A stretch of 64,000 nucleotides of DNA from Prototheca cutis. Its lineage: Eukaryota > Chlorophyta > Trebouxiophyceae > Chlorellales > Chlorellaceae. The first letter of the stretch is position 1. Each line of letters opens with the position of its first letter. Of the stretch, positions 12,601 to 63,900 are shown piece after piece. The position numbers were made by a program, and so were the translations under genes. The stretch lies in contig BCIH01000004.1 of NCBI GenBank assembly GCA_002897115.2, positions 1,392,057 to 1,456,056 on the forward strand, given 5' to 3'. Under the pieces are notes generated by a model. That model was not told the DNA's origin and did not search any database. It worked only from the letters and a program-made list of their open reading frames with translations.

Positions 12601-13194
12601 CAAGCAAAACCAGGCGGTCGGTGGCCCACACCGGTTGACTAACCCGCCTTGCCCCTAACAAGCCAGGTCAGCCATGGGGGCAAGACAGGCCAGCGGGCCC
12701 ATGCTTGCCGCCATGTCGCTGAAAACCAACATACTAGGCCATTAGCAGTCGGCGCCGGCCCAGCAGGACGGCTCAACAGCCAGCTTCCCCACTCCAATAC
12801 CCCACCCCCCAGGCGGGCCGATGGATGACATGATATGCGGACAGAAAACCGATTCGAGTGCCTGCTCCGCAGGCCTCACAAGTCGTACGAAAATCATGAC
12901 ACAGCCGATCTCGTGCCCACATATGCCCCTCGACTATCACAGCCGCTCACCCATGGAGCGGAAGAAGGAGGCCCATGTCCGGTCCACAGACTTGGGGTCC
13001 TCGCGATAGCGCTGCTCCAGCTCCTCGAGGTAGGTAGAGCTGGTGCCATCCAGGAAGCTATCTTTCATCTTGGACAGCGCCACGGGCTTGGGATGAGCCT
13101 GGCCCGCATCTTTGCTGGAGTGCAACCAGCGCCCGGCCACGGCCAGGCGACTGCCCAGCCGGCCGCCCGCCCGCCGCGAGGTCAGCGCCAACAT
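9613..13194 (-). CDS. OGDH: 2-oxoglutarate dehydrogenase E1, mitochondrial
   Basis: Two exons, 13194-12951 and 12452-9613, join in phase to 1027 residues, the usual length of the E1 component. Exon 1 begins with an Arg/Ala-rich mitochondrial presequence (SRRAGGRLGSRLAV) and includes the lipoyl-enzyme binding start (SSTYLEELEQRY). Exon 2 contains MPHRGRLN, the thiamine-diphosphate segment HGDGAFAGQG with the following VNNQVAFTTDPR, GYRRYGHNEIDEP, and SHRHAVLHDQ, and closes with TGFGSIHAKEQ. The enzyme decarboxylates 2-oxoglutarate and passes the succinyl group to E2 in the TCA-cycle complex. The single very long second exon is unlike the intron-rich neighbours. A 1005-codon open frame on the opposite strand is a codon-bias shadow. 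Confidence 0.95.
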
Positions 13195-43611: not shown

Positions 43612-45692
43612 ATGCGCGCCGTGGAGTGGAGCAGCTTGGAGGCGCTGCCCAAACTGCTGACCCAGCACGATGACAACCCCGCCGTGGGCAGCGGCACGGA
43701 ACGTGAGCAGCTGCTCCAGGCCCTGGACTCTGGCGATCTGTGCATGGGGGCATATGCTTCAGGAGACGAAGGGTGCGTTTTCTGTTTGGTGGTTTGGGAG
43801 TTTGGGAGTTTGGGAGTTTGGGAGTTTTGGAGTTTTGGAGTGGAGTGGAGTTGAGTGGAGTGGAGTTGAGTGGAGTGGAGTGGAGTGGAGTGGAGTGGAG
43901 TGGAGTGGTTTCCTTTAGAGGGGTGTTTTCAGGGGGGAATTTTTCAGCAGGGAATCCCGCAGCATTTAGAAAGAGATGCAATGGGAATCAGCTTTTGTTG
44001 CTACAGCACATTCATGACTGGGGCATGATGACTTGGGATTGACTTGTGCGGCATTCCGACAGTGCGTTGTCCCGAGACATGCAGACGGGAGCGCTCCCTG
44101 CTACGCGTGCCGCGTCCTCAGCCGATACATGTCCTGTCGCCATCTCCATCTCGTCTCCACCCTTTCACCGCAGCAGCAGCTCATTTCTCGAGTTTGCGCT
44201 GCACCGACGGGTGGTCAGTGTCCGCGTGGCGGCTGGTGAGGGTGGGCAGCGCCCCGAGCCGGCCATGCACGACGTGGGACTAGACCCCGGCGAGGCGGTG
44301 TGCTCGTTGGCAATCTTGCCCCCGCTGCTGCCGCGGGGCAAGGCTTCAGGAGGTCCGCTGCTGCTCCTGGGAACCACCACGGGCGCGTTGCTGGTCTGCG
44401 GCGTGCGGGACGGGCGGTGCCGCCTGCGCCAGCCGCTGCTGGACGGTCCCCTGGCGTCGCTGGTTGTGGGCCCCGGCCCCGGCGGCGGCCTGCAGGTCAC
44501 GGCCACGGCCCCCGCGTCCGTGGCGCGGATCGAGGGTCTGGCCGTCGCGTCTGCCGCGACCTGGCGAGCTTCCGCCTGGGTGCGAGCCGCCGCGTGGGGA
44601 GGGGCCTCTCAGCCGCCGGTGCTTCCAGTCCAGCGCTGGGCGCTGGGGCGAGGGTTGGGGCCGAGGACGGCCGCCGCGGTGCTCCCCGGAAAATCGCTCT
44701 CCGCCCTGCACACAGCGCTCGCGGCCCTCAGCACGGGCCACGCGCCGGATCGAGCCGTGCAGGTCGTGGCCGTGGGCGGTCGGCCCCCGCTGGCGGCGTT
44801 TCTCGCGCCCGACGCCGAACCGACTCCCCGGCCGGGCCTGGCGCGGGCGGCCATGGGCGTGGCCGCCAGGGTGGCCGCCCGGGCCCGGGCGCACGTGCCG
44901 ACTCGCCTGGCGGCGTACGTTCCCGGGCGCGCGGACGGGGCCGACGTCGTCGGGGACGGAGCCGTCGGGGCATTGAACACGACCGTTCCTACCGGTGCCA
45001 CCACGAAGGCGACCCACGTGTGGGACGAGCGACGGGTCATAACGTCCCTGGCCGTGTCCTCCTGGTGCGTGTTTTTTGGGGCATCGATGAGTCATCATGC
45101 AGCGCGTGTGTGTTGGGGGAGCCCTTCGGGTTTGGACTCGTGCGCGAGCGTGTTTTTTGGGGCATCGATGAGTCGTCATGCAGCGCGTGTGTGTTGGGGG
45201 AGCCCTTCGGGTTTGGACTCGTGCGCGAGCGTGTTTTTGGGGCATCGATGAGTCGTCATGCACCGAGCGGGAGGCGGGGACGTCCCCTCACATCCCAGCA
45301 AACCCTCGAAACGGCGCAGCGGCTGTTGGGGCCTGGCCTGCGACTCGATGGGGCGCGTGCTGCTGCTGGACTTGGCCTCGGTGCTGGTGGCGGCGATGCT
45401 CAAGGGGTACCGCTCCGCCCAGGCGGCCTGGCTGGTCTGGGGCGCGTGTGCAGGGCCGAAAGAAGCGGCAGTCGTGTACGCGCCCCGCCGGGGGGCGCTG
45501 GAGGTCTGGGGCCCCGGTCTGGCGACGCGACTGGCGAGGTTGCGGGGGCTGGGGCCGCGGTGCCTCCTGGCCCAGCCGGGGGCGTCGCCGCAGCTCTGGG
45601 TCGCCGATCTCGAGCGCATGGCGTGCGCCGACCTGGCGCCCGCCCTGCGCCGCGCCGCAGGTGCCGGCGACGGCGCGTGCGACCGAGTGTGA
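43612..45692 (+). CDS. RAB3GAP2: RAB3GAP2-like regulatory subunit, N-terminal domain only
   Basis: Exons 43612-43772, 44174-45064 and 45299-45692 join in phase to 481 residues. Family signatures are the beta-propeller-like opening (LLLLGTTTGALLVCGVRDG), VWDERRVITSLAVSSW before intron 2, and DSMGRVLLLDLASVLVAAML with KGYRSAQAAWL after it. Animal RAB3GAP2 is about three times longer. This gene stops after the propeller-like N domain, which fits a shorter protist form rather than an obvious truncation because the stop follows well-formed coding sequence. The partner RAB3GAP1 makes Rab18 GEF and Rab3 GAP complexes at ER and lipid droplets. Intron 1 contains GGAGT repeats, and intron 2 is almost wholly an 81-bp tandem repeat. 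Confidence 0.75.
43794..43908. repeat. GGGAGTTT / GGAGT tandem repeats, RAB3GAP2 intron 1
   Basis: A run of TTGGGAG octamers changes into pentanucleotide TGGAG repeats directly downstream of the exon 1 donor. Confidence 0.9.
45067..45263. repeat. 81-bp minisatellite filling RAB3GAP2 intron 2
   Basis: Two full and one partial copy start at 45067, 45148 and 45229, exactly 81 bp apart. The copies are nearly identical (one base change in the first copy, one T lost in the third). The unit is a multiple of three and stays open for 27 codons in the upstream exon frame. Confidence 0.95.
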
Positions 45693-48946: not shown

Positions 48947-49522
48947 TCACTCGGGCAACACGGCGGCCGTCCGTGGGGGGTGCGAAGAGAAAGAGCGCGG
49001 GGCTCCATCGATCGATCGATCGATCGATCGATCGATCGATCTGCGCTGAACGATCTTGAAGGACGCCTTGCAGCCCGCCTTCGTCGAGTCCAAAGGACCC
49101 TTGCCAGGGGCAGGATCCTTCCTCTCCAGGCCGTACCCATAGGGGTAGCAGATCCTGACAACGCTCGACCCCTGCACGGGCGTTTGGTTGGGGCAGCAGC
49201 GTGAGGTGTCGGACAGATCGTCAAGTCCTGAAACTCCACCCTCCTGGCTGGCCCACCGGAACTTTCTTTCTTGGCATCGACATGATAGGTCGTCCAGTGG
49301 CGCCTCTCCACCGCTCTCTTCGATAGGATCGGGTGTGCTGTACGGCGTGATGACGGAATCAAACTTTTTCCTTCCCCAGTTCGTCTCCTTCAGCGGCAGG
49401 TCTTCGACGACGACGTCGCCTGGCGGCGGATCGTGTACCGCCGGGCCCGCACTCCGCTCGTCCGTCTTCCAAGCCGTTCGCCGGATCCATGGCAAACAAT
49501 TATCTGCACGTGAAAGAACCAC
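48947..49522 (-). pseudogene. Unidentified coding-like stretch, possible transposase remnant
   Basis: The minus strand is open from 49522 to 48947. It has structured composition with DVVVEDLPLKETNWG, a Cys-containing segment VVRICYPYGYGLERK and KAGCKASFKIV, the last reminiscent of FAR1/MULE-type N-terminal zinc modules. It then runs into a GATC microsatellite. No full domain or catalytic triad is present, so this is at most a fragment. Confidence 0.25.
49008..49040. repeat. (GATC)n microsatellite
   Basis: About eight GATC units. The tract is self-complementary and rich in dam-type sites. Confidence 0.95.
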
Positions 49523-50470
49523 GTCTCGCGCTGCTCACAGGGGGGGACAGCTGTAGAGATCGGGGGTTTCGAAATTCGCGGACCCCAACTGTTGTCGTCG
49601 CAGAACGGAATGGATGCCACAAACCCAGCCCCAACCCCCGGGGGATGGGTATTGAAGGTGGCAACAAAACAACGGCGCGCTGTCCACGGCGTCGAGTGCG
49701 TCCGCGAGTGGCGCGGGTCGGTCGGAATCCTATCGATTTCTTTCGAGTCCAATCATGCCGCCCATCGCGGCCTGCCGGTAGAGTCGAGGGTTCAAGTCTG
49801 AAGCTCGTTTGAACGAGGAAAGACACCCGGGGGTTCATTTTTTCAACTGCCGTTTGAGGGCCTCGCGAGGTTCCGCATAATTTTGGATTTATTCGGTGTT
49901 CCTGCCAGGGCATCATCAGCCCCCACGAGCTACCGCATTCTTGAGACAAGGCCCATGGGAACCTCTGCTTTCCAAGTTTGTGTGGGTTTGCGACCCCATC
50001 GAATTCGATCCCCCCTTCCTGCGATCTGTCAGTTGCGTTATGCCCTGTCATCGGCCCTGGTCAGTTGCGTTATGCCCCGTCAGGCCCTGGTCAGTTGAGT
50101 TATGCCCCGTCAGGCTCTCTCAAACTGGCCTTGCCAAGTCATCCCCCCCCTGCCACGCCGTGCCTGTCGCTGCCTGTGTCTGACGCGATTTCCCGATCAT
50201 TTCCAGGGACTGCGTGCACGTTCGGACACGTTGCGGCAGGCAGAGCAGACCGAGGAGGTGTTCCGATGCATACCCAGCCGCCAGAGGGGCGGCGGCGCCC
50301 TTCCTCGACGCCCCTGCACCCCGAGAGTCGGCTCGCACTCCGTCNGGACCGGCCAGGGTTGCAGTCCCTCCGTCCAAGAAATNATGAACCGTGCTCCCTC
50401 CACGACGCAACGCAGGGCGGTGGAGTTACAAATTGGGTTACACATGTCCAAGGACGGCCCTGGAGCAGGC

Positions 50471-50477
50471 TATAAAA
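50471..50477 (+). promoter_or_regulatory. TATA box of Fanzor copy 1
   Basis: TATAAAA inside GGCTATAAAAAGGG, identical in copy 3 and placed about 380 bp before the coding ATG. The 5' leader contains an intron (donor 50723 GTGAGC, acceptor ending 50846) just before the ATG. Confidence 0.7.
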
Positions 50478-50854
50478 AGGGNCTTCCCGGCTCCTGCATC
50501 CACTCTTTTATTTTTTTTTGTACATTACATTTGCTCTGTATATTACATTACTTTTACAATACCTTGTACAATACATTATTTTACATTATCTTGTACAATA
50601 CCTTGTACGTTTACAGTTCCCTGTACCTTACAACCATCTGCAACGTTTTGTCGATCGCAACTGTTGTCGTCTCGGGAGGGAGGAAAGTTGCCCCGATCAC
50701 CCACCCAACTGGGCACGCATCGGTGAGCTGATCGTGGTGTGAGAAACAACGTGGCCCCTGCGATGTAGATTGCTTTCCGTCGACCCCACATGGGCACGTC
50801 GTTTCCTTGCCACCATCCATCCATGCATTGGCTCCTTGCATTGCAGCCAACGCA

Positions 50855-52618
50855 ATGGACGAGGACTGCTGGGGCCTCGGAAAGGAGGCCACCAGGGGCA
50901 CCATGTCGACTGTCAAGTCGTCGGTGCGTGAAACGTGGCAGGACGAACACCACAGCCCCCTGGAGGGACTCGTGATGAAGACGCATCACGTCACCTCCTA
51001 CGCCGCGCTCTTCGCCCGGCTCCTCATCCTCCAGGAGTTTGAGCGGGGCAACGTGCATCGCTTGCCCGAGATGGCGTCGGACAAGTTCCTGGCCCAGGTC
51101 TTCTTCTCGCTGGTCGTCTATCGGCAGAACAGCGCGAACTGCAGCCGCGACACGCTGCTCATGCGCCTCCGTCTGAGCGCCGCCTTGCCCAAGTTCCTCC
51201 AACTGACCGGGTATGAGCCGCCGTCCTTTCGCAGCCCAAACAGGGTGAGTCGGATGGGGTGCCAGGTGACTGGGTATTGGCGTTTTGACTCCTGCCTGCG
51301 TCGCTCGCTCACTTGCATGCTCGCTTGCTTCTGAAGGGCGGAGGTCCGATCACCCGTTTGACAGATCGATCAACGATTGCCCGGCCTGGGTCCANGACGA
51401 CCCCTACCGATGCGCAGATCGCCGTGTACTGGGCCGAGGGCTGGTGCCGGTCGATCTTGACCAACATCCGCCTGCACTTGGGCGAGCATCTGCGGGGCAC
51501 CGTCAACCTGCTCCTCGACATCAAGGCCCGGCGCAANGAGCTGCTGGAAAAGGCGAAGGAGGNGAACTGGGNCGCCGACAGACGCCGCGAGACGCTGGAC
51601 CGGGAACTCTACGAACCGGTCCGGCGCATCAAGGCGGGCCTCGGGCGGCTCGACCCGGCGGTCAAGGACCTGGACGCCGCCCAGCAGGCGGTGTACGACC
51701 GGCTGCTGGCGCTGCTGCGCTCTGCCTACCGGCCGGAGCACCGGTTCAAGAAGGGCACGCTCTACTACGACGTCCAGGCCANNNNNNNNNNNNNNNNNNN
51801 NNNNNNNNNNNNNNNNNNNNNNNNNNNNNNNNNNNNNNNNNNNNNNNNNNNNNNNNNNNNNNNNNNNNNNNNNNNNNNNNNNNNNNNNNNNNNNNNNNNN
51901 NNNNNNNNNNNNNNNNNNNNNNNNNNNNNNNNNNNNNNNNNNNNNNNNNNNNNNNNNNNNNNNNNNNNNNNNNNNNNNNNNNNNNNNNNNNNNNNNNNNN
52001 NNNNNNNNNNNNNNNNNNNNNATGGAGGCGCCCAACGGGCACAAGGCCTGCACCGTCTCGGCCTTCTCCGACTACCTGCGCGTGTTCGGCCAAGTCGAGC
52101 CGACGCTGACCGGGTACTACGCCCGGCCCATCTTCCGCACGCTCCACCTGTGGTCGTACAGCTCCCGCCAGCGCGCCTACGCGGCGCTGGTCGCGAAGCT
52201 GCGCGCGTTCGCCAACGGCGCGACGCTGGTCGTCGGCGACTGCTCGCCAGGCGCGGCACGTTACCACGAACCCACACCGAGCGTCGGCCTGCTGCGGGTG
52301 CTGGTCAAGGCGGGCTTCGACATCCTGCTCATCGACGAGTACTGCACCTCCCAGTTCTGCCCCGGCTGCGAGAAGCGCTCGGTGAAGACGTTCCTCGACG
52401 TGCCCAACCCCCGGCCGCACCGCAGGGAAAAGAACCCCACCGTGCGCTGCCACGGGCTCCTGCGCTGCGCCAACTGCAAGGTCAAGGATGGGCGATCTCG
52501 GCTCTGGAACAGGGACCTCATGGCCTGCCTCAACATGCTGCTCATCGTGCAGGGGCTCCGCGAAACCGGCAAGCGGCCCGAGCGCTTCCAGCGCCCCAAG
52601 CCCAAGAAGAGCTCCTGA
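50855..52618 (+). CDS. Fanzor RNA-guided nuclease, copy 1, interrupted by assembly gap
   Basis: Exon 1 is 50855-51244 (130 codons) and exon 2 runs 51418-52618. The intron (51245-51417) is phase 0 with GTGAGT and CAG, as in the other copies. Exon 1 encodes the N-terminal helical part (start MDEDCWGLGKEAT), and exon 2 opens IAVYWAEGWCRS. The 240-bp N gap 51782-52021 hides the middle including RuvC-I; copy 3 has 1007 bp there, so the gap is about 770 bp too short and the frame change across it is an artefact. After the gap come LVVGDCSPG, DEYCTSQFCPGC, RCANCKV and NRDLMACLNML. Near the zinc ribbon this copy differs from copies 2 and 3 (CEKRSVKTF for CEERSVEPF). It is probably intact in reality. 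Confidence 0.8.
51782..52021. other. Assembly gap (240 N) in Fanzor copy 1
   Basis: The gap lies inside the nuclease coding exon. Comparison with copy 3 predicts about 1007 bp of missing sequence including a repetitive Ala/Asp-coding linker, a plausible reason for assembly failure. Confidence 0.9.
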
Positions 52619-52797
52619 AGAGCACTCCTGTCAAACATCTCTCCGTGGCGGCTATTGCCGCTACACTTGCTGCCCTCGGGCAAGGAGGCGCCTTAATTCA
52701 AAAAAAAATTAACACGACTGATTTACTTCCTTGCCCTGCCACTGCCCTGTCCTGCCCTGCCCTGCCCTGAACGATCATCCTGCCCTGTAATAGCGAA
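52619..52797 (+). ncRNA. Candidate Fanzor guide RNA (fRNA/omegaRNA) scaffold, copy 1
   Basis: Noncoding tail directly after the nuclease stop. It is conserved with copies 2 and 3 and with the deletion derivatives: an AGAGCACTCCTGTCA-type start, CTCTCCGTGGCGGCTATTGC, a poly-A patch, then pyrimidine repeats of CCTGC/CCTG and the invariant CCTGCCCTGTAATAGCGAA. In TnpB and Fanzor systems the guide RNA scaffold overlaps the 3' end of the gene and ends at the element right end, and the guide is the flanking DNA. Transcription is not shown by sequence alone. Confidence 0.55.
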
Positions 52798-52919
52798 CCC
52801 TAACAGCGAATTCACAAGCCTTGGTCCGCATTCCATTCGTAACTTTAGGCAATCAGGGTGTGTGCCCCGGAAAGGCAGGGGTGGGGCGCCCACATGGAGG
52901 GCGGTCGATGACCCCCTCA

Positions 52920-53090
52920 TAGGCTGACTGCACGGACGCCTGTCACGTGGTCGGGCTGGGGCCAGCCCCCCAGTCCCCATGCGAGGGTCGAACGCTGCAC
53001 GCCAGAACGCCGGAAGACCGCTCGAAACGCAGCAAAATAAAATAGAATGCATTACATTGATAAAATAAATGCAAAAAGGGCAAAAGAAGC
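52920..53090 (+). repeat. Repeat block beside Fanzor right end
   Basis: A block with ACGTGGTCGGGC ... CCCCAG ... GGAAGACCGCTC and an AT-rich CATTACATxxATAAAAT stretch recurs at 57740-57890. Its first half also heads the deletion derivatives at 56860 and 63060. It may be part of a longer element end. Confidence 0.6.
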
Positions 53091-53467
53091 ATAGCATGGA
53101 GACATTTAGGGGAAGGAGAAAAATGTGGTGTCCCTTACTTCCCACTGCAGCAGGTTCGATTCCTGACGACACGCTGCGATTGGCCCCCCGCCCATGTCAG
53201 ACTCCCCGATCTGGTCATGACGCGACTGGATTATTTTTAATTCAGTTACATGAAACAAGGGTGCATCTCGGAGTCCAAAAGGACAACCTGAAGGCGTGCC
53301 TCCTCTTTCTTTCGTCGGCGTCCAGGTCCATCTGCAACACCACACACCACCCGTACGAGCATGTTCTCAAGTCACTTTGTCCGAGAAATTGTCAGAAATT
53401 CAAGCGGTTTGTTTTGAACATATTTACCCTGGTTTTGCTTTTTGAAATGCCACCGCGGCATGAATGA

Positions 53468-53473
53468 TATAAG
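53468..53473 (+). promoter_or_regulatory. TATA box of Fanzor copy 2
   Basis: TATAAG in GATATAAGAGCAGG, followed about 25-30 bp later by CTCATGCATC, similar in spacing and context to the CTATAAAAAGG box of copies 1 and 3 (CTCCTGCATC downstream). Confidence 0.6.
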
Positions 53474-53852
53474 AGCAGGCCTCCTCCGCTCATGCATCTA
53501 TTCCATCCCCCTATTCCATCCGCGCAAGAGAGGCAACGCAAAAAAGCACGATCGATCGCGACTGTTCTTTGTTTCAAGCACGGGCCACCCACCCACCATG
53601 ACGAAGAGCGTCGGGGCGTGGGTGTGGCAGCCCAGTCACCAGGAGCAGCCGGGCGAGTAGGACGCTGTTTCCAGCCCGACGAGCATCGGTGAGTCCCCTT
53701 TCCTCCCTCCCGTGATGCGACGAGACCAACACGATCGCGATCTCCGACGCTTGCCATGCCAGCTTGCCATGGAAGGGCGGGGCGACTCGAACACATCGAT
53801 TTTTTTGCCGCGCATCCATTAATTGATTAATGAATCCATCCATCCATCCATT

Positions 53853-53880
53853 CGTTCGTTCGTTCGTTCGTTCGTTCGTT
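53853..53880. repeat. CATC/GTTC microsatellites in 5'-UTR intron of Fanzor copy 2
   Basis: CCATC units, then seven GTTC units, then repeated ATTCCATCCATCAACGC motifs continue to about 53975, all within the 5'-UTR intron. Confidence 0.9.
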
Positions 53881-54005
53881 CCATCCATCCATTCGTTCGT
53901 TCCATCATTCCATCAACGCATTCCATCCATCAACGCATTCCATCCATCAACGCATTCCATCCATCAACGCATTCCAACGAGCGCAGGTGCAGAGACCTGG
54001 TCAGA

Positions 54006-56554
54006 ATGGACAAGGACTGCTGGGGCGCCGGGGAGGCATCCCAGGGCGGCATGTCGACCGTCAAGGGGTGGGTCGGCGCGGCGTGGAAGGAGGACTGCCA
54101 CAAGAACCTGGAGACCGTTGTCCGGAAGACGAATCACGCGGGGCCCTACTCCGTGCACTTTGTGCGGCTCGTCGTCCTCGAGCAGCTCGAGCTGGGCAAC
54201 GTGGGCTGCATACCGGAGCTGGTCTCCGAAAAGTTCTTCACCGAGGCCTTTCTCTCGCTGGTGACCTACGGCCAGCAAAAGGCCAAGAACGAAGACATCA
54301 TTCGCTTCCGCAAACTCTTGGCCGCCTACAAGCCCAAGTTCCGGGAGCTGACTCTGTACCAGGCGCCGGCGTTCAAGAACCCAAACCGGGTGCGTCGGGC
54401 GCGTGAACGGGACTGCGACCGACCGACCGCTGGTCGCATGCGGTGCCTGCCTGCTTGCTTGCTTGTGTTGAAGGCTGAGCGAGGGATTGCCCCGAAAGAA
54501 ACAATTGATGACGGACGGACATGGGGTTGGTTGGCGACGCACCCACCATACGATACACCGATCAACCAATAAATCGACCTCCTCGACGAAACTTTGCGCA
54601 GATCGCCACGTACTGGGGCGAGGCCTGGTGCCGGGCGACGGAGACCAACGTCCGAGTCCACTTCGGCGAGCATCTGCGGGGCACCGTCAACCTGCTCCTC
54701 GACGTCAGGGCCCGGCGCAAGGAGCTGCTCGAAAAGGGAAAGGAGGAGAACTGGGACGGCAAGAAGCGGCGCGATGTGCTGCACCGGGAGCTGTACGGCC
54801 CCGGGCAGCGGATCAAGGCGGGCCTCGGGCGGCTCGACCCGGCGGTCAAGGACCTGGACGCCGCCCAGCAGGCGGCGTACGACCGGCTGCTGGCGCTGCT
54901 GCGCGCCGCCTACCGGCCGGAGCACCGGTTCAAGAAGGGCACGCTCTACTACGACGTCCAGGCCAGCCCACGGGAGCACGTCGCCGCGATGATCGCGCTG
55001 TCGCGCCTCCGCGCCGAGGAAAACCTGCCCGCGTTCCAGGCCGTCCCCGCGCGCGCGTCGTTCGTGCCCGGGGCGGTGGAGATGGACAACCAGGCCGCGG
55101 CCATGAACGTCCTGGGCTGGCGCAGGGTGCCAAAGGCGACCGAGCAGGACGCCGTCTGGAAAAACGGCCTGCTGCTGCCAAAGCGCCGCGAGATCAAGGA
55201 CGCCGCCGGCGGCAGAAAGCACTGCGGGCACGTCTACACCGACGGCAGATCGTGCTGCTACGTGAAGAAGGACCCGAAGCAGACCGGCAAGGGCCGGCAC
55301 AAGCGCCCCGAGTGTGGCGGCGGTGGAGCCAAAGGCGGCGGCAAGTGTGGCAAAGGCGGCAATCCAGCGGAGCCAAAGAGGCAGAAGCTGCCCGATGGAC
55401 GGTGCGGAAATGTCAGCGACGACGCAAGCAAGGTCGGTGACAGCAACGACAGCAACGACAGCAACGACAGCAACGACAGCAAGGGCGACGCTCCCGAGCG
55501 GCGCAGCGGCGGCGGGGAGCCCAAAGGGCTCGACTCAAGCGCGGAACGTGAAGTGGCGGCCGGCATTAGTGCTCGCACCAACACAGGCGCAGAGGCGAGC
55601 ACCTCGGGTGCCCCGCCGCCGCCGAGCCACCCGGGGGCGCAGCCGGCCCGCCGGCGGCGCGCGACCAACAAGCGCGCGGGGCTCGAGGGCCTGCAGTACG
55701 TCGAGGACGTCGACCCCGCGGTGCTGCGGACGCTGAAGCTGGTGTTCATCGACCCCAACCGCCGCGACCTGCTGTTCTGCCTGCACGAGGACTCGCGGTC
55801 GGGGAGGAAGCACTGGAAGATCATGCGCTTCACCTCCAACGAGTGGGCGTACTGGACGCGGTCGCGCAAGCTGCGCAGACTGCGCCAAGCGCTCATGACC
55901 CAGGAGGTGCGCGCGTGCGAGCGGCGCCTGGTGATGGAGGCGCCCAACGGGCACAAGGCCTGCACCGTCTCGGCCTTCTCCGACTACCTGCGCGTGTTTG
56001 GCCAAGTCGAGCCGACGCTGACCGAGTTTTACGCGCAGCCCTTCTTCCGGGACGCCCGCTTCTGGGCGTACAGGAACCGCCAAAAGGGCTACGCGGCGCT
56101 GGTCGCGAAGCTGCGCGACTTTGCAAAAGGCGCGACGCTGGTCGTCGGCGACTGCTCCCCGGGCGCGGCGCGCTACCACGAGCCAACCCCGAGCGTCGGC
56201 CTGCTGCGGGTGCTGGTCAAGGCGGGCTTCGACGTCCTGCTCATCGACGAGTACTGCACCTCCAAGTTCTGCCCCGGCTGCGAGGAGCGCTCGGTGGAGC
56301 CGTTCCTCGACGTGCCCAACCCGCGCCCCTATCGCAGGGCACAGTACCCCACCGTGCGCTGCCATGGGCTCCTGCGCTGCGCCAACTGCAAGGTCAAGGA
56401 TGGGCAATCTCGGCTCTGGAACCGGGACCTCATGGCCTGCCTCAACATGCTGCTCATCGTGCAGGGGCTCCGCGAAACCGGCAAGCGGCCCGAGCGCTTC
56501 CAGCGGCCCAACAAGGGGAAGAACAATAAAGACAACGACGAGAAGAAGAGCTGA
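54006..56554 (+). CDS. Fanzor RNA-guided DNA endonuclease, intact copy
   Basis: Exons 54006-54389 and 54602-56554 join in phase 0 to 778 residues. The protein is a TnpB-like RuvC nuclease. RuvC-I is VFIDPNRRDLLFC with Asp512. The segment LVVGDCSPGAARYHEP carries Asp645 and Glu655. DEYCTSKFCPGC follows with Glu678, an alternative catalytic acid of the type described for Fanzors. RuvC-III is NRDLMACLNML with Asp737. The zinc ribbon uses Cys685, Cys688, Cys721 and Cys724. Exon 1 and the start of exon 2 form the helical, RNA-binding N part. A disordered linker near residues 370-490 contains Gly/Lys and Asn-Asp-Ser repeats ahead of RuvC-I. All catalytic positions are present, so activity is plausible. 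It is expected to enter the nucleus and cut DNA guided by its right-end RNA. Confidence 0.9.
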
Positions 56555-56753
56555 ACGAAGAGCTCTCTTGATTCCGGCCTGTTACTGCAGTGTCCACTTT
56601 TGCCGAATGAACCTCGGGGCTTCCTTGGCCTCCAGGAGACGGTAGGCTGGCGCGTTAATCCCAAGAAAAAACAAATGTCTTTGTTTGCGCTTTTGCCTCT
56701 GCCCTGTCATGCCATGCATCCTTTCCTGCCCTGCTCTGCCCTGTAATAGCGAA
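56555..56753 (+). ncRNA. Candidate Fanzor guide RNA scaffold, copy 2
   Basis: The tail after the stop keeps the plan of the other copies (GAAGAGCTCTC, an A-rich patch, CCTGCC/CTGCC repeats, CTGTAATAGCGAA) although the middle is diverged. Sequence after the AGCGAA terminus (TCCACACGCC...) would be the guide if the same boundary rule as in TnpB holds. Confidence 0.5.
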
Positions 56754-56859
56754 TCCACACGCCCTGGCTTGATCACGTAAGAGAAGGGAAGACAGCGGGA
56801 GCTTGTTGCCTGTCAGATAAGATTGCGGGCAAAAAAGAGGTGCGGAGTACGTGGTTTGG

Positions 56860-57636
56860 GCCTCGGCTGATTACGTGACCAGGGCCCGGCCCGGTCCCCA
56901 GCGTCGAGTGTCCAAAAAACCTGCACGCTGGAGGGCCGGAAGACCACGGAGATCTCAGTGTACTGGGCCGAGGCTGGCGCCGGGTGACGGAGACAGCCCG
57001 TCAAGTCCACTCGGGCGAGCACGTGCACCGTCGACCTGGTGCGCAGCATCGAAGCTGGCGCAAGGAGCCGCTGGAGCAGTGACTGGGGAGAGGAGACTGG
57101 GACGGCCACGGCGGGACAGGGCAGCCAGCCCACGGGGTGCTTCTATGCCTGTGCTGGTGCGAGCGGCAATGCGTGCCGCCACTCCAGCGAAGAAGAGCAC
57201 TCCCTGCCAGCACCTCTCCGTAACCGCTATCGGCGCTCGTTCCACTAGCTGGGCCTTGGGCAGGCCGGTGCCTGCAACTTGCTCACAAAAGCCCAAAGTG
57301 CCTTTTCCTTCCTGCCGTGCCACGTCTGGCTTGCCCTGCCTTCAGGGGGGAGGCGCGAGCACCCCTTTTCTTTAAAAACCTGCCCTACCCTGTGTACCCC
57401 CCAATAAAAAGACTGATTGTGCGTTCCTGCCCTGGCCCCGCCCTTGAACTCACCAAAAAGAACGTACTTTCCTGCCGTGCCACGTCTTGCTTGCCTTCAG
57501 GGAGGCGAGCACCCTTCCCAAATGAACTAAAACAAAAAACATTGATTGCACTTTCTTGCCCTGCCCTGGTCGATAATCCTGCCCTGTCCTGAACGATCAT
57601 CCTGCCATGCATCCTTTCCTGCCCTGTAATAGCGAA
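56860..57636 (+). mobile_element. Non-autonomous Fanzor derivative 1, internally deleted
   Basis: The middle retains a mutated piece of exon 2 (GTGTACTGGGCCGAGG, then a GGGCGAGCACGTGCACCGTC stretch matching the region coding AEGWC and GEHLRGTVNL), then jumps to the tail (CTCTCCGTAACCGCTATC) and the right end at 57636. The RuvC and zinc parts are absent and frames are broken. The tail is duplicated: TTCCTGCCGTGCCACGTCT occurs near 57311 and 57471. The intact ends suggest mobilisation or guide-RNA production in trans. Confidence 0.7.
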
Positions 57637-57902
57637 ATTCATACACCCTGGCTTGATCACGTAAGAGAAGGGAAGACAGCAGAGGGCGATTGTCTGTCAG
57701 AAAAGATTGCGTGCAAGAGGTGCGGATTACGTGATCGGGCCTCGGCGGATTACGTGACAAGGGCCCACGTGACAGGGGCCGGCCCCCGTCCCCAGCATCG
57801 AGGGCCGAGAACGGCGCGCTGGAGGCCCGGAAGACCGCTCCAAAAGCGCCAAAATAAAGAAAAAAGCATTACATGCATAAAATGAAGCGTAAAATGGCAA
57901 AA

Positions 57903-57994
57903 TAGCAGGGAGGCGCCTTAACCACTCGGCCACGTTGTCAGAACGCTTGTCGACAACGGCAGGATTCGAACATGCGCCCCTTGCGGGACCTCCT
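57903..57994 (-). tRNA. Circularly permuted tRNA-Ser(GCU)
   Basis: On the minus strand the 3' half (57994-57951) comes first, then 11 bp, then the 5' half (57939-57903). Rejoined they give an 81-nt type II tRNA: acceptor GACAACG/CGTTGTC perfectly paired, TG, D arm GCC-GAGTGGTTAAG-GC, anticodon stem CCTCC/GGAGG, loop CTGCTA+A with anticodon GCT, a long variable arm with CCC-GCAA-GGG, T arm GCATG-TTCGAAT-CCTGC and discriminator G. One T-stem mismatch (position 52-62) is the only flaw. The break is again in the anticodon loop after position 37. A TTTT run follows the 5' half. The gene lies between right ends of two Fanzor-type elements. Confidence 0.88.
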
Positions 57995-58184
57995 GAATGC
58001 TTGTTGGGGAGGCAACATTATTCCCGCCTGAAATATCCGAAATCCCATTTACCATTTCCCATGTACGGTCCCGACAGGCATGGCATTTGCTGTCGCTGAA
58101 GGTCAGTCCCTCAGTTTTTCCAGGCACATTATCTAATCTAACAGGTATTTCTTACGTGATCTACCCTCACCAGGGCATGTAGAT

Positions 58185-58384
58185 TTCGCTATTACAGGGC
58201 AGGATGATCGTTCAGGGCAGGGCAGGGCAGGACAGGGCAGGGGCAGGGCCAGGGGCAGGGGCAGGGAAGAAAGGACAATCAGTCGTTTCATTTTATTTTT
58301 TTTGAATTAAGGCGCCAGCCTGCCCGAGGGCAGCAAGTGTAGCGGCAATAGCCACCACGGAGAGATGTCTGACAGGAGTGCTCT
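58185..58384 (-). ncRNA. Candidate Fanzor guide RNA scaffold, copy 3
   Basis: Tail after the stop, nearly identical to copy 1 (AGAGCACTCCTGTCAGAC, CTCTCCGTGGTGGCTATTGC, A-run, CCCTGCC repeats) but with an expanded pyrimidine repeat. It ends CCTGCCCTGTAATAGCGAA at 58185. Confidence 0.55.
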
Positions 58385-60915
58385 TCAGGAGCTCTTCTTG
58401 GGCTTGGGCCGCTGGAAGCGCTCGGGCCGCTTGCCGGTTTCGCGGAGCTCCTGCACGATGAGCAGCATGTTGAGGCAGGCCATGAGGTCCCGGTTCCAGA
58501 GCCGAGATCGCCCATCCTCGACCTTGCAGTTGGCGCAGCGGAGCAGCCCGTGGCAGCGCACGGTGGGGTACTGTGCCCTGCGATAGGGGCGCGGGTTGGG
58601 CACGTCGAGGAACGGCTCCACCGAGCGCTCCTCGCAGCCGGGGCAGAACTTGGAGGTGCAGTACTCGTCGATGAGCAGGACGTCGAAGCCCGCCTTGACC
58701 AGCACCCGCAGCAGGCCGACGCTCGGGGTTGGCTCGTGGTAGCGCGCCGCGCCCGGGGAGCAGTCGCCGACGACCAGCGTCGCGCCGTCGGCGAACGCGC
58801 GCAGCTTCGCGACCAGCGCCGCGTAGGCGCGCTGGCGGGAGCTGTACGACCACAGGCGGAGCGTGCGGAAGATGGGCCGGGCGTAGTGCCGGGTCAGCGT
58901 CGGCTCGACTTGGCCAAACACGTGCAGGTAGTCGGAGAAGGCCGAGACGGTGCAGGCCTTGTGCCCGTTGGGCGCCTCCATCACCAGGCGCCGCTCGCAC
59001 GCGAACACCGCGGGGGGCTTCATCTCCCTCCGCACGCGGCGGTACTTGCGCGACCGCNTCAGGAACGCCCACTCGTTGGCCGTGAAGCGCATGGTCCTGC
59101 GCTTGCCCTTGCCGGGCTGGGAGTCCTCGTGCATGCAGAACAGCATGTCGCGGCGGTTGGGGTCGATGAACACCAGCTTCAGCTGCCGCAGCTCCTCGGG
59201 GGGGACGTCCTCGACGTACCGGACGCCCTCCATGCCCCGGCGCTGGCGGCGCTTGCGGGTCTTGCGNGGNGCCGCGTCGCCCGGGGCGTGGAGGGCGTCC
59301 CCTACGTTGGCCGCGCCGCTGTCAGCAGCAGCTGCATTGCTGCCATCAGCAGCAGCTGCAGCGGCATTGCCAGCAGCAGCAGCTGTAACGGCAGCGCCGC
59401 CAGCATCATCAGCAGCTGCAGCGGCATCGCCGCCATCAGCAGCAGCAGCTGCAGCGGCATTGCCGCCGGCGCCAACAGCAGCTGCAGCGGCATTGCCGCC
59501 GGCGCAGGCATCGGTAGCGGCGGCGCCGCCATCGGCAGCGGCGGCGCCGCCATCAGCAGCAGCGCCGCCATCGTCAGCGCCGTCATCGTCACAACAGTCA
59601 TCGTCAGCGTCGTCGTCGTCACAACAGTCATCGTCGTCGTCACACGCGGGTCGCTTGCGCCGCCCCTTGCCGGTCAGGCTCGGGCGCTTTTTGATGAAGC
59701 AGCACGACCTGCCGTCGGTGTAGACGTGCCCGCAGAACTGTCTGTCGCCGAGGTCCTTGATCTCGCGGATGCCCCGCTTCAGCAGGCCCTCNATCCAGAT
59801 CTCCTCCTGGTCGGCGGAGCCCGGCGCCCCGGTCCAGCCCAGGACGTTCATGGCGGCGGCCTGGTTGTCCATCTCCACCGCCCCGGGCACGAACGACGCG
59901 CGCACGGGGACGGCCTGGAACGTGGGCAGGCCNTNCTCGGNGCGGAGGCGCGACAGCGCGATCATCGCGNCGANGTGCTCNNGNGGGNTGGCCTGGACGT
60001 CGTAGTAGAGCGTGCCCTTCTTGAACCGGTGCTCCGGCCGGTAGGCAGAGCGCAGCAGCGCCAGCAGCCGGTCGTACACCGCCTGCTGGGCGGCGTCCAG
60101 GTCCTTGACCGCCGGGTCGAGCCGCCCGAGGCCCGCCTTGATGCGCCGGACCGGTTCGTAGAGTTCCCGGTCCAGCGTCTCGCGGCGTCTGTCGGCGNCC
60201 CAGTTCNCCTCCTTCGCCTTTTCCAGCAGCTCNTTGCGCCGGGCCTTGATGTCGAGGAGCAGGTTGACGGTGCCCCGCAGATGCTCGCCCAAGTGCAGGC
60301 GGATGTTGGTCAAGATCGACCGGCACCAGCCCTCGGCCCAGTACACGGCGATCTGCGCATCGGTAGGGGTCGTCNTGGACCCAGGCCGGGCAATCGTTGA
60401 TCGATCTGTCAAACGGGTGATCGGACCTCCGCCCTTCAGAAGCAAGCGAGCATGCAAGTGAGCGAGCGACGCAGGCAGGAGTCAAAACGCCAATACCCAG
60501 TCACCTGGCACCCCATCCGACTCACCCTGTTTGGGCTGCGAAAGGACGGCGGCTCATACCCGGTCAGTTGGAGGAACTTGGGCAAGGCGGCGCTCAGACG
60601 GAGGCGCATGAGCAGCGTGTCGCGGCTGCAGTTCGCGCTGTTCTGCCGATAGACGACCAGCGAGAAGAAGACCTGGGCCAGGAACTTGTCCGACGCCATC
60701 TCGGGCAAGCGATGCACGTTGCCCCGCTCAAACTCCTGGAGGATGAGGAGCCGGGCGAAGAGCGCGGCGTAGGAGGTGACGTGATGCGTCTTCATCANGA
60801 GTCCCTCCAGGGGGCTGTGGTGTTCGTCCTGCCACGTTTCACGCACCGACGACTTGACNGTCGACATGGTGCCCCTGGTGGCCTCCTTTCCGAGGCCCCA
60901 GCAGTCCTCGTCCAT
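58385..60915 (-). CDS. Fanzor RNA-guided nuclease, copy 3 with repetitive linker
   Basis: Exons 60915-60526 and 60352-58385 join to 785 residues, open throughout apart from undetermined bases. Domain order follows copy 2: N helical part, KGTLYYDVQA, EMDNQAAAMNVLGW, a linker, RuvC-I LVFIDPNRRDMLFC, LVVGDCSPGAARYHEP, DEYCTSKFCPGC, RCANCKVEDG, NRDLMACLNML. All acidic catalytic positions and zinc cysteines are present. The linker (about 59240-59655) is expanded into Asp/Cys repeats and then Ala/Gly/Asp repeats coded by GCAGCA-type triplets, quite unlike the Asn-Asp-Ser linker of copy 2. The antisense strand of this exon is also open, a codon-bias effect. Likely functional if the ambiguous bases are ordinary. 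Confidence 0.85.
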
Positions 60916-61292
60916 TGCGTTGGCTGCAATGCAAGGAGCCAATGNATGGATGGATGGTGGCAAGGAAACGACGTGCCCATGTGGGGTCGACGGAAAGCAA
61001 TCTACATCGCAGGGGCCACGTTGTTTCTCACACCACGATCAGCTCACCGATGCGTGCCCAGTTGGGTGGGTGATCGGGGCAACTTTCCTCCCTCCCGAGA
61101 CGACAACAGTTGCGATCGACAAAACGTTGCAGATGGTTGTAAGGTACAGGGAACTGTAAACGTACAAGGTATTGTACAAGATAATGTAAAATAATGTATT
61201 GTACAAGGTATTGTAAAAGTAATGTAATATACAGAGCAAATGTAATGTACAAAAAAAAATAAAAGAGTGGATGCAGGAGCCGGGAAGGCCCT

Positions 61293-61299
61293 TTTTATA
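61293..61299 (-). promoter_or_regulatory. TATA box of Fanzor copy 3
   Basis: TATAAAA on the minus strand in GGCTATAAAAAGGGCC, identical to the copy 1 box, about 380 bp before the coding ATG at 60915. Confidence 0.7.
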
Positions 61300-62082
61300 G
61301 CCTGCTCCAGGGCCGTCCTTGGACATGTGTAACCCAATTTGTAACTCCACCGCCCTGCGTTGCGTCGTGGAGGGAGCACGGTTCATNATTTCTTGGACGG
61401 AGGGACTGCAACCCTGGCCGGTCCNGACGGAGTGCGAGCCGACTCTCGGGGTGCAGGGGCGTCGAGGAAGGGCGCCGCCGCCCCTCTGGCGGCTGGGTAT
61501 GCATCGGAACACCTCCTCGGTCTGCTCTGCCTGCCGCAACGTGTCCGAACGTGCACGCAGTCCCTGGAAACGATCGGGAAATCCCGTCAGACACAGGCAG
61601 CGACAGGGCACGACGTGGCAGGGGGCCGATGACTCGGCAAGGCCAGTTTGAGAGAGCCTGACGGGGCATAACCGGGAGCCTGACGAGGCATAACCCAAAT
61701 GATCTGAGCATGACGGAGCATGACCGCCGGTATGACGGGGCACAAACTGGCAGATCGCAGGAAGGGTTTCGACGAACGGATTTCGACGACCGGTTGCACA
61801 CCCCACGAACACTTGAAACCAGAGGTTCCCACGGAATAGAGAAGCTTGTCTCAAGAATCCGGTGAATAGTGGGGGCTGATCATGCCCTGGAACACCGGTT
61901 AAATGCATGTTGAACCTCACGAGGCCCTCAAACGGCAGTTGAAAAAAATGAACCCCCGGGTGTCTTTCCTCGTTCAAACAAAACGAGCTTCAGACCCGCA
62001 GCTCCTTCTGGGAGAACTCTCCAGCTCCACCGGCATGCCACGGCATTCGACGACGGCATGACTGAACCAGAAGGTTATAGAA

Positions 62083-62126
62083 TTCGAACCTGCGCCACTT
62101 GCGGGACGCACTCGACGCTATGGACA
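62083..62126 (-). pseudogene. tRNA-Ser 3'-half-like fragment
   Basis: The minus strand reads a variable arm CCCGCAAGTGG, GCGCAGG, then TTCGAAT, aligned with the 3' half of the permuted tRNA-Ser at 57951-57994, and the following flank also aligns (ATTATTGCC, CCTG). The T-stem 3' strand and acceptor are degraded (TCTATAACC) and no 5' half follows, so it is nonfunctional. Confidence 0.6.
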
Positions 62127-62532
62127 GGACGCCATTATTGCCACCTGCAGTATCCTTGACGGGTGGACGACTTTCCTTTTATTGCCCCCAAACTCATCCT
62201 CTGGCAACCCATCTTCCTGATGCCCCCGAGGTTGACAGATTGATATGGAAAACCGCATCCTTGTTTCCACCTCCAGTGGGCATCCTAATACTAGAGCGGT
62301 AGCGTAACCTTGCAGTGAAGGCATACAGTTGGTGCAGGACAGCATGGGGATTGGCTGTGCGCTCATTGGTACGCCTGATTGGGTCGCTCCGGTATGGTCC
62401 CGGCAGACAGGTGATTCTCTATAGCATTTTGCTGCAGTTCAGAGTCCAGTCCTTCCGACACAGTTTTTCCAGGCACATTATCTGATCTGACAGGTTGTCT
62501 TCCCTTACGAAATTCACCCAGGTCATGTGCAT
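62127..62532. other. Flank between tRNA-Ser relic and Fanzor derivative
   Basis: These 406 bp contain a segment homologous to 58090-58184 (TTTTTCCAGGCACATTATCT near 62464) but no gene. Confidence 0.5.
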
Positions 62533-63060
62533 TTCGCTATTACAGCGCAAGGCACGGCAGGGCGGATGCAGGACAGGGCAGGGCACGGCAGGAGAGTAAA
62601 GACGCTTGGCTGTGAGTTGAAGGCGGGCCGCTGCCTGGGACCCAGCCACGTAACGCCGGTTACGGAGAGACGTCGACAGGCAGTGCTTTTCAGGAGCTCT
62701 TCTTCGCTGGAGTGGCGGCGCGCATTGCCGCTCGCACCAGCACAGGCGTACAAGCACCCCCCATGGGCTGGCTGCCCTGTCCCGCCGTGGCCGTCCCAGT
62801 CTCCTCTCCCCGGCCACTGCTCCAGCAGCTCCTTGCACCGGGCCTCGATGCTGCGCACCAGGTTGATGGTGCACGTGCTCGCCCGAATGGACTTGACGGG
62901 CTGTCTCCGTCACCCAGCGCCAGCCCTCAGCCCAGTACACCGAGATCTCCGCGGTCTTCCGGCCCTCCAGCGCGCCGTTCTCGACTCTCGACCCTCGACG
63001 CCGGGGCCGGACGCCCGTCACGTGGGCCCTGGTCGCCAATCACGTAACCCGCCAGCCCTG
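62533..63060 (-). mobile_element. Non-autonomous Fanzor derivative 2, internally deleted
   Basis: The minus strand carries the same head (GGCGTCGAGGGTCGAG ... GGAGGGCCGGAAGACC), the same exon 2 remnant (GTGTACTGGGCTGAGG, TTCGGGCGAGCACGTGC), the deletion, GAAGAAGAGCTCCTGAAA, CTCTCCGTAACCGG and the right end GTAATAGCGAA at 62533. It is a sibling of derivative 1 with the same deletion and so represents an amplified subfamily. Confidence 0.7.
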
Positions 63061-63099
63061 CTGGGTCTCCCGACGTGCTCTGGCAGGCGTGCATTCGCG

Positions 63100-63900
63100 G
63101 TTGCAGCCCGAGGGAGCGCGCTCAGTGGTTTTCGGAAAGGGGTGCTTTACTCGCGCTGAGGGCGAGCGGCAGGGAGGTCGCAGACAGCGCCCTGGCCGGC
63201 CCGGGCCGGGCCCTGCCCGGGGGCGCCAGCCGCCAGGGAGGGACGTCGACCGGGAGTGCTGTCCTTCGGTGGAGCGGTCGCAGCCAGTGCCGGGTGCAGG
63301 CGAAGGCCCAGCAGCAGCAGCCCGCCGTCTGTCCCTCCTGGGCCCCGGTCCAGCAGCCCTTCGATTTGACGACCCGCCGCGCACGCGGCGGCCCTGCCGC
63401 TGGACGTCCCGCCCGGGTGCACTGGGACGCCGCCGGTCTCCGTCGCCCGTCGCCGGCCCTCGCCCAGGGCGCCGTCGAGCGCCGAGTTGTTGGTCGATGG
63501 ATTGGGTGTTTGGTCGGCCGAGTCGCCGCGTGGTGGTCTGGGCGCCGTCCCTTCCCACTGGATCGGTCCGTCCGTTGACTGATCGATGGACGGGAGCCGC
63601 TCGACCGGGGGATCGGCCCTTGACGCAGGCAGGCGGGCGTCCGCCCGGCGTCGAGTCAGTCCTGCTGGACGTGACGCCCGGCCGGCCGGGTGGTCGCAGC
63701 AGCGAGACTGGCTCTGGCGGCCGGGCCGCCGGTGCAGGTCGCCCACGGCCGGCGTCGACGATGCGCGTGCTGATCGTCCGAGGGGGTGCGCGCGCTTCGT
63801 CGCGAGAGGGAGGTTCCTTGCGCGTGCGTGCCGATGCAGGCGGCGGTGACGCGCACTGACGGCGGTGAAGCCTTGTCGAGCTTTGTCGACTGCCACGTGA
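63100..63900 (-). mobile_element. Highly degraded Fanzor-like remnant
   Basis: On the minus strand, GGGCGAGGGCCGGCGACGGG with GACGGAGACCGGCGG and CACCCGGGCGGGACG aligns loosely with the exon 2 remnant of the derivatives. Upstream, CCCCGGTCGAGCGGCT and ATCGATCAGTCAACG resemble the Fanzor coding intron, and downstream CACTCCCGGTCGACGTCCCT resembles the tail. The sequence has drifted to very high GC. The alignment is weak, and the right end is not visible. Confidence 0.35.

Follow-up and report, generated by a model that had tools for sequence, protein, structure and literature searches.

Fanzor1 proteins are eukaryotic relatives of the RNA-guided DNA cutters from which CRISPR-Cas12 arose; Fanzors are candidates for genome editing, and little is known of what they do natively in the eukaryotic cell. 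Here, a cluster of Fanzor1 genes is described in a 64-kb stretch of high-GC eukaryotic sequence from the alga Prototheca cutis (contig BCIH01000004.1, positions 1,392,057 to 1,456,056; hereinafter "the window", in which positions are counted from its first letter). The cluster spans ~49.6–63.0 kb and comprises, in this order, copy 1 (+), copy 2 (+), the decayed fragment D1 (+), copy 3 (−), and the decayed fragment D2 (−). We consider it probable that these genes represent a sister branch to a family dispersed in the same genome, which was duplicated locally, is probably stranded, and encodes at least one full-length protein.

According to the parts of the published reports available to us, Fanzor homologues perform RNA-guided cutting adjacent to a short motif (PMC10432273, PMC11423790). 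The element SPu-1 of Spizellomyces punctatus, encoding SpuFz1, has the Fanzor1 fold and the catalytic residues in common with the window protein. Its inverted repeats with putative TA duplications resemble those of the dispersed family of P. cutis, and its 134 gene-less "ghost" loci are comparable to the gene-less dispersed elements described below (PMC3627910, PMC10432273). At the same time, SPu-1 possesses a single open reading frame (ORF) and 33-bp repeats, whereas the genes considered here have two exons, the dispersed elements bear repeats of ~17 bp, and none were found at the window copies. PpFz1 of Parasitella parasitica (PDB 9cf0) is characterized by a cyclophilin-binding FRI insertion within RuvC (PMC11423790); the window protein, in contrast, harbors a long low-complexity linker before RuvC-I. 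In GtFz1 of Guillardia theta (PDB 9cer), also a Fanzor1, the third catalytic place is taken by asparagine (PMC11423790), whereas the window copies, weakly similar to it (E 8.5e-4), have aspartate there. The same asparagine occurs in P0001, an algal-type Fanzor homologue of 647 amino acids. In Auxenochlorella UTEX 250-A, a member of the same algal lineage, the repeat with the highest abundance is an uncharacterised Fanzor-coding element (PMC12633428), probably kin to the dispersed subfamily of P. cutis; the available part of that account describes neither its ends, nor derivatives, nor a local end-less cluster. Hence, Fanzor is already known from the Auxenochlorella lineage and the kind of gene is not novel; what is new is that one small genome combines a TA-flanked family of dispersed elements with, in contrast, a local cluster lacking recognised ends.

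The original prediction had assigned the genes to Fanzor, and this assignment holds: Fanzor1 was ranked first by sequence, profile, and fold searches alike (in the fold comparison, matches to Fanzor, Cas12, and TnpB were followed). The copy 2 protein groups with Fanzor1 rather than with Fanzor2 or TnpB. The proposed catalytic residues are borne out as well, since D512, E678, and D737 of copy 2 align with D383, E541, and D606 of SpuFz1; the RuvC residues listed for exon 2 of copy 2 are D512, N514, E678, and D737. In terms of the 677-amino-acid exon-2 ORF, whose numbering is lower by 101 than that of the protein, D411 and E577 (D512 and E678) are invariant in the structure alignment of 16 rows (the window ORF plus 15 matches), and D636 (D737) is kept in at least 90% of the rows; the displayed alignment comprises 13 rows. 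The matches were obtained with ORF residues 385–672 (15 among 1975 candidates); the search with the whole ORF returned a single match among 8000 scored candidates, being probably filled by low-complexity words. The published Fanzor1 motif, D-X(125,275)-[TS][TS]XX-C4 zinc finger-X(5,50)-RD (PMC3627910, available in part), is present in copy 2 as D512, T681 S682, C685 C688 C721 C724, and R736 D737 (positions checked by hand). The catalytic D/E/D set is complete in copy 2, the same motifs are found in copy 3, and the D of copy 1 is hidden by an assembly gap. In a tree of 11 of the 15 homologue matches and six rows from the genome itself, with residues containing undetermined bases (N) removed, the window copies, the dispersed copies, and P0001 fall into one clade (100/99), separate from the fungal rows.

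Copy 2 is an intact two-exon gene (54006–56554) coding for 778 amino acids, with no internal stop and no N. The motifs FIDPNRRD, GD..HEP, DEYCTSK, CPGC..CANC, and NRDLMACLNML are all seen in it. Its intron is the single in-frame GT-AG pair free of a premature stop among the donors at 54375–54399 and the acceptors at 54560–54611 that were scanned. Exon 1 alone matches residues 517–619 of the Parasitella Fanzor1 chain (E 6.5e-6), and exon 2 matches this chain from residue 630 onward; because the two exons correspond to neighbouring stretches of it, the splice joint agrees with the solved homologue. As to the spliced leader and the promoters suggested earlier, TATA-like sequences are discernible by eye at ~50471 and ~53468, and a donor-like motif, GCATCGGTGAG, is common, also by eye, to the upstream regions of copies 1 and 2; the spliced 5′ untranslated region is putative.

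The rest of the genome (19.9 Mb in 23 contigs were searched) provides the background against which the cluster is to be viewed. At least 79 matches to the exon-2 ORF were found (E ≤ 0.001), 66 of the 248 candidates having been scored; five of them lie in the window, and the remaining 74 display 39–74% identity over the matched parts. The position of the intron is apparently common to the subfamilies, as judged by eye. The main dispersed subfamily features sharp element ends with inverted terminal repeats of ~17 bp flanked by TA, the 5′ end reading TA/CCATGCAGGGCAAAAATGATGAA (in L049; copies differ from each other in the first ten bases) and the 3′ end ATTTTTGCCCTGCATGG/TA, where the slash marks the element boundary. 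TA stands 9 or 10 bases ahead of the GGCA anchor at all 22 of the 5′ ends examined and terminates 22 of the 24 3′ ends examined. The 19-base terminal repeat, TA included, occurs 193 + 186 times in the genome at up to 2 mismatches (control, 0 + 0). The terminal ~150 bp are conserved; searches with the 150-bp ends gave at least 40 and at least 41 matches, with 40 scored in each case out of 324 and 293 candidates. A 3′ end of this subfamily folds better than its shuffles (z −2.1; 6 of 200 shuffles equally good), and changes on both sides were found in 1 of 45 pairs, the sequences being too alike for covariation. Miniature elements also occur: among the 100 places listed, a hand count yielded 9 convergent pairs of 109–122 bp (4), 358–368 bp (4), and 601 bp (1), ends included. 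Three of their sequences were examined, the TA ends being implied by the search pattern: L056 (~122 bp), L057 (~109 bp), and L058 (~363 bp) are built from Fanzor element ends, L056 being a nearly perfect palindrome of the 3′ end. A third Fanzor subfamily is represented by L032 (~49% to copy 2 over exon 2), in which an insertion of the KNGRECKSERGC type is repeated close to the zinc ribbon.

In contrast to the dispersed sister family, which has both, the window copies show neither terminal inverted repeats nor flanking TA. The terminal repeat of the dispersed family, allowing up to 3 mismatches, has no match in the 64 kb (0.14 expected by chance), and neither its 5′ nor its 3′ terminal 350 nt match anything in window positions 49000–63100. 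When compared with a simple block shuffle, no inverted-repeat pair around copies 1–3 stands out. In a search that skips simple repeats, four places in the genome matched the 3′ flank of copy 2, all of them within C4:1448746-1454641. The absence of recognised ends and the confinement of this flank to the cluster suggest that the window copies spread locally, by duplication. Alternatively, the copies may still be mobile, with ends that escaped recognition, either short degenerate repeats around CAGGGCA or one-ended termini of the Helitron type, as in the Fanzor elements of Chlamydomonas. The presence of Fanzor1 in one-ended Helitrons, reported by Bao and Jurka (PMC3627910, available in part), speaks for this, as do CAGGGCA cores, similar to the sister terminal repeat, which precede copies 1 and 3 and recur in their 3′ flanks. 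Still, on the 5′ side the CAGGGCA site does not bound the homology of copies 1 and 3, which continues beyond it, and in the 3′ flank TGCCCTG forms a local satellite as well; together with the restricted distribution of the copy 2 flank and the shuffle result, this makes ongoing mobility rather unlikely.

The reading frame of the cluster genes bears traces of protection. Over the 743 codons compared between copies 2 and 3, which have diverged by 22.5% in nucleotide sequence, there is no internal stop, while 8.1–9.2 would be expected if the same substitutions were placed at random; at most 0.05% of such simulations were free of any stop. Where the end of copy 1 enters the comparison, the ratio of nonsynonymous to synonymous substitution rates (dN/dS) amounts to 0.34–0.54, it being understood that a GC content of the third codon positions near 0.9 distorts such ratios. 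Overall, the frame is protected and the amino acids weakly so, as far as these comparisons of sequence go. A frame retained at such divergence in a local gene family without recognised ends, with TATA-like and leader splice-like motifs of its own, could also be expected if immobile Fanzor1 genes had been domesticated by the host for a cellular task, e.g., the control of the dispersed elements. This scenario is nevertheless quite unlikely in view of the decayed fragments residing in the same cluster and of an amino-acid constraint no stronger than in the dispersed elements (the nonsynonymous observed/expected ratio for exon 2 is 0.75 for copies 2 and 3 vs. 0.61–0.72 in five dispersed pairs); for the latter reason, purifying selection was rejected as grounds for inferring domestication. 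Among the papers listed in a literature search, none dealt with a domesticated Fanzor, as judged by titles and abstract openings.

The coordinates of the cluster features are given in Table 1. The original prediction counted three two-exon genes, of which the intact copy 2 and the open, motif-bearing copy 3 stand. Copy 1, interrupted by 240 N, is visible as its N-terminal part and its last 198 codons, its middle with RuvC-I being replaced by Ns, so that three independent genes are not confirmed. That reading was correct on the protein and somewhat overstated on copy number and activity; the decayed fragments D1 and D2 did not figure in it. In the inverted 1620-bp block shared by copies 1 and 3, 1607 positions are identical and two mismatched; N occurs in both at seven positions (the opening base of the N run and six isolated Ns), in copy 1 alone at one, and in copy 3 alone at three. 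The block is limited by the N run in copy 1 and by an N cluster in copy 3. Beside it, the similarity is lower: leaving gaps aside, the flanks agree at 82% (5′ side) and 94% (3′ side, 52022–52797), and when all columns are counted, at 68% and 92%, respectively. Except for one at 30286, all single Ns of the window fall within copies 1 and 3 or upstream of them. Probably, the shared block is one assembled piece used twice, as its sequence and pattern of Ns suggest.

Table 1. Features of the Fanzor1 cluster (window positions)
Feature	Positions	Strand	Remarks
Copy 1, exon 1	50855..51244	+	130 amino acids
Copy 1, beginning of exon 2 as far as the assembly gap	51418..51781	+	
Copy 1, run of 240 N (RuvC-I part)	51782..52021	+	real missing length may differ
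Copy 1, last 198 codons and stop	52022..52618	+	E, zinc ribbon, and RD motif present
Block shared with 59988–61607	50163..51782	+	inverted, nearly identical, 2 mismatches
Copy 2, exon 1	54006..54389	+	128 amino acids, N-terminal part; gene model and Parasitella Fanzor1 match
Copy 2, intron	54390..54601	+	GT-AG, 212 nt; collinear with the homologue on either side
Copy 2, exon 2 including stop	54602..56554	+	rest of WED/REC, low-complexity linker, RuvC, zinc ribbon
Copy 2, 3′ flank	56690..56840	+	other genome matches all inside the cluster
Decayed fragment D1	~56873..57198	+	start of exon 2 joined to gene 3′ end; 88% to 63023–62696
Copy 3, exon 2 including stop	58385..60352	−	open; several N-bearing codons; aspartate/alanine-rich linker
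Partner of the shared inverted block	59988..61607	−	nearly identical to 50163–51782
Copy 3, exon 1	60526..60915	−	130 amino acids
Decayed fragment D2	62696..63023	−	layout as in D1

The near-identity of the block, its shared Ns and its N-bounded ends raise the question of whether collapsed repeats in the assembly account for most of the arrangement, chiefly for the inverted copies 1 and 3, all the more so as 11 of the 20 large Fanzor stretches examined contain more than 500 N. Against this, copy 2 is free of N and differs from copy 3 by 8.8–49.6% depending on the segment, and outside the block copies 1 and 3 are not identical, with 5.4% divergence over the 199 codons compared at the end of the gene; that the arrangement is for the most part an assembly product is considered highly improbable. 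Because of the N runs, copy counts and the lengths of open frames at Fanzor loci elsewhere in the genome are unreliable. Giant open frames of ~2000–6600 amino acids near some Fanzor matches were accordingly rejected as fusions, being N gaps read as open frame; this origin was seen directly in L005, and the other examined loci, a set not including C12:309847, C2:1300081, and C3:144280, were judged by their N counts.

Taken together, the evidence favours a stranded, locally duplicated Fanzor1 cluster, the history and function of which may be envisaged as follows. Translation of the spliced mRNA would yield a protein comprising WED/REC, RuvC, and zinc-ribbon parts; from its homology to SpuFz1 and PpFz1, it is predicted to associate with an omega RNA and to cleave DNA beside a short motif. 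In the dispersed sister family, a TA-duplicating transposase acting in trans would move the elements with short inverted repeats, the guide RNA would derive from the 3′ end of the element, and Fanzor would cut the emptied site or a homologous one, whereupon repair would bring the element back. Such restoration of elements at cut sites is known from work on bacterial TnpB. In the window branch, direct and inverted local duplication would have taken place, with recognisable ends and a structured 3′ end either lost or never present.

A number of observations weigh against this scenario. The predicted model of copy 2 is of low confidence (mean predicted local distance difference test score, pLDDT, 63). 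The 3′ flank of copy 2 folds no better than its shuffles (z +1.0), so no guide RNA was seen at the window copies by this folding test. As for a transposase, no Pfam match at E 0.1 was obtained near the cluster in ten flanking open frames hand-picked from 86; the mariner-type transposase family PF13358, sought with a possible Tc1/mariner membership of the dispersed family in view, gave no match in the genome in a search that recovered 3 of 14 controls, and PF03184 and PF01359 likewise gave none in searches recovering no control, which does not imply their absence. The lack of stops in copies 2 and 3 is significant for the whole alone, since 0.11–0.54 of the simulations for single segments are also stop-free, and 1.6 of the expected stops fall into the badly aligned linker. 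Constraint on amino acids is weak, with NG86 dN/dS of copies 2 and 3 at 0.78–1.58 by segment and an overall nonsynonymous observed/expected ratio of 0.78. Furthermore, synonymous divergence (dS) between these copies is uneven along the gene, i.e., 0.54 in exon 1, 0.12–0.15 in the first parts of exon 2, 0.96 in the linker, and 0.08–0.09 at the C end; with exon 1 and the linker fast and the core homogeneous, conversion or chimeric assembly is suggested, which may blur the history of the cluster.

Deletion derivatives of the dispersed elements constitute a further facet of this genome. Among the 79 exon-2 ORF matches listed, nine end at ORF residue 224–227, and in the six of them that were examined (L030, L051–L055) this point is joined to the last ~70 codons, leaving a RuvC-less frame. 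The retained 198-codon stretch of these six contains no stops, with a length change in one of six (and in one of five comparison copies), and its nonsynonymous observed/expected ratio is 0.64 vs. 0.65 in five undeleted copies, some of which have N runs elsewhere. The leftover C-terminal codons are decayed, differing from L031 by 10.7–18.0% vs. 2.4–4.5% in four undeleted copies. The idea that the derivatives carry the 3′ coding region for the sake of its RNA therefore finds no support, the tail being less conserved than in other copies. These sequence comparisons might be taken to mean that Fanzor1 pursues three life styles here: mobile nucleases, a stranded host-kept cluster, and RuvC-less truncated Fanzors, mostly WED/REC, encoded by multicopy derivatives. 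If true, the latter would be a eukaryotic counterpart of the nuclease-free TnpB-derived regulators; titles and abstract openings of the papers retrieved disclosed no RuvC-less Fanzor. We regard this proposal as doubtful to a considerable degree, as the derivatives form a clade in 0% of 200 bootstrap trees, their divergence may be older than the deletions or stem from conversion, exon 1 is matched only in part in two of the six (L030 and L053), and the pairs compared are not independent. Another deletion class is displayed by L038, L041, and L042, in which approximately residues 171–474 are gone and RuvC and the zinc ribbon are kept; the longest open frames of these loci differ from the Fanzor frame.

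An intact Fanzor1, hundreds of sister terminal-repeat copies, RuvC-less derivatives, and an end-less cluster, all occurring together, make up a natural test bed for such questions as the use of Fanzor to its element, the keeping of the guide RNA in gene-less elements, and the retention of immobile copies. Auxenochlorella, a photosynthetic laboratory relative, can be manipulated by homologous recombination (PMC12633428, available in part).

Apart from the Fanzor genes, the window contains, next to copy 3, a circularly permuted tRNA-Ser(GCU) gene with its 3′ half first (57993–57951) and, after an 11-nt spacer, its other half from 57939 to ~57903, on the minus strand. ARAGORN detected no tRNA in the native order and a tRNA-Ser(gct) after the halves had been reordered. 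Permuted tRNAs have been reported in Auxenochlorella (PMC12633428, available in part). At least 17 tRNA matches were found in the 19.9 Mb (63 of 246 candidates scored), and such a low number fits many of the tRNA genes being permuted or intron-bearing. A run of N is present at 2871–2970, and an 81-bp unit is repeated in tandem at 45067–45228 with 99% identity, inside open frames. The 2-oxoglutarate dehydrogenase gene at 9613–12603 (−), by which the genome is placed in or close to the Auxenochlorella-Helicosporidium-Prototheca lineage, is 87% identical to that of Auxenochlorella, 77–78% to those of Chlorella and Micractinium, and 73% to that of Helicosporidium.

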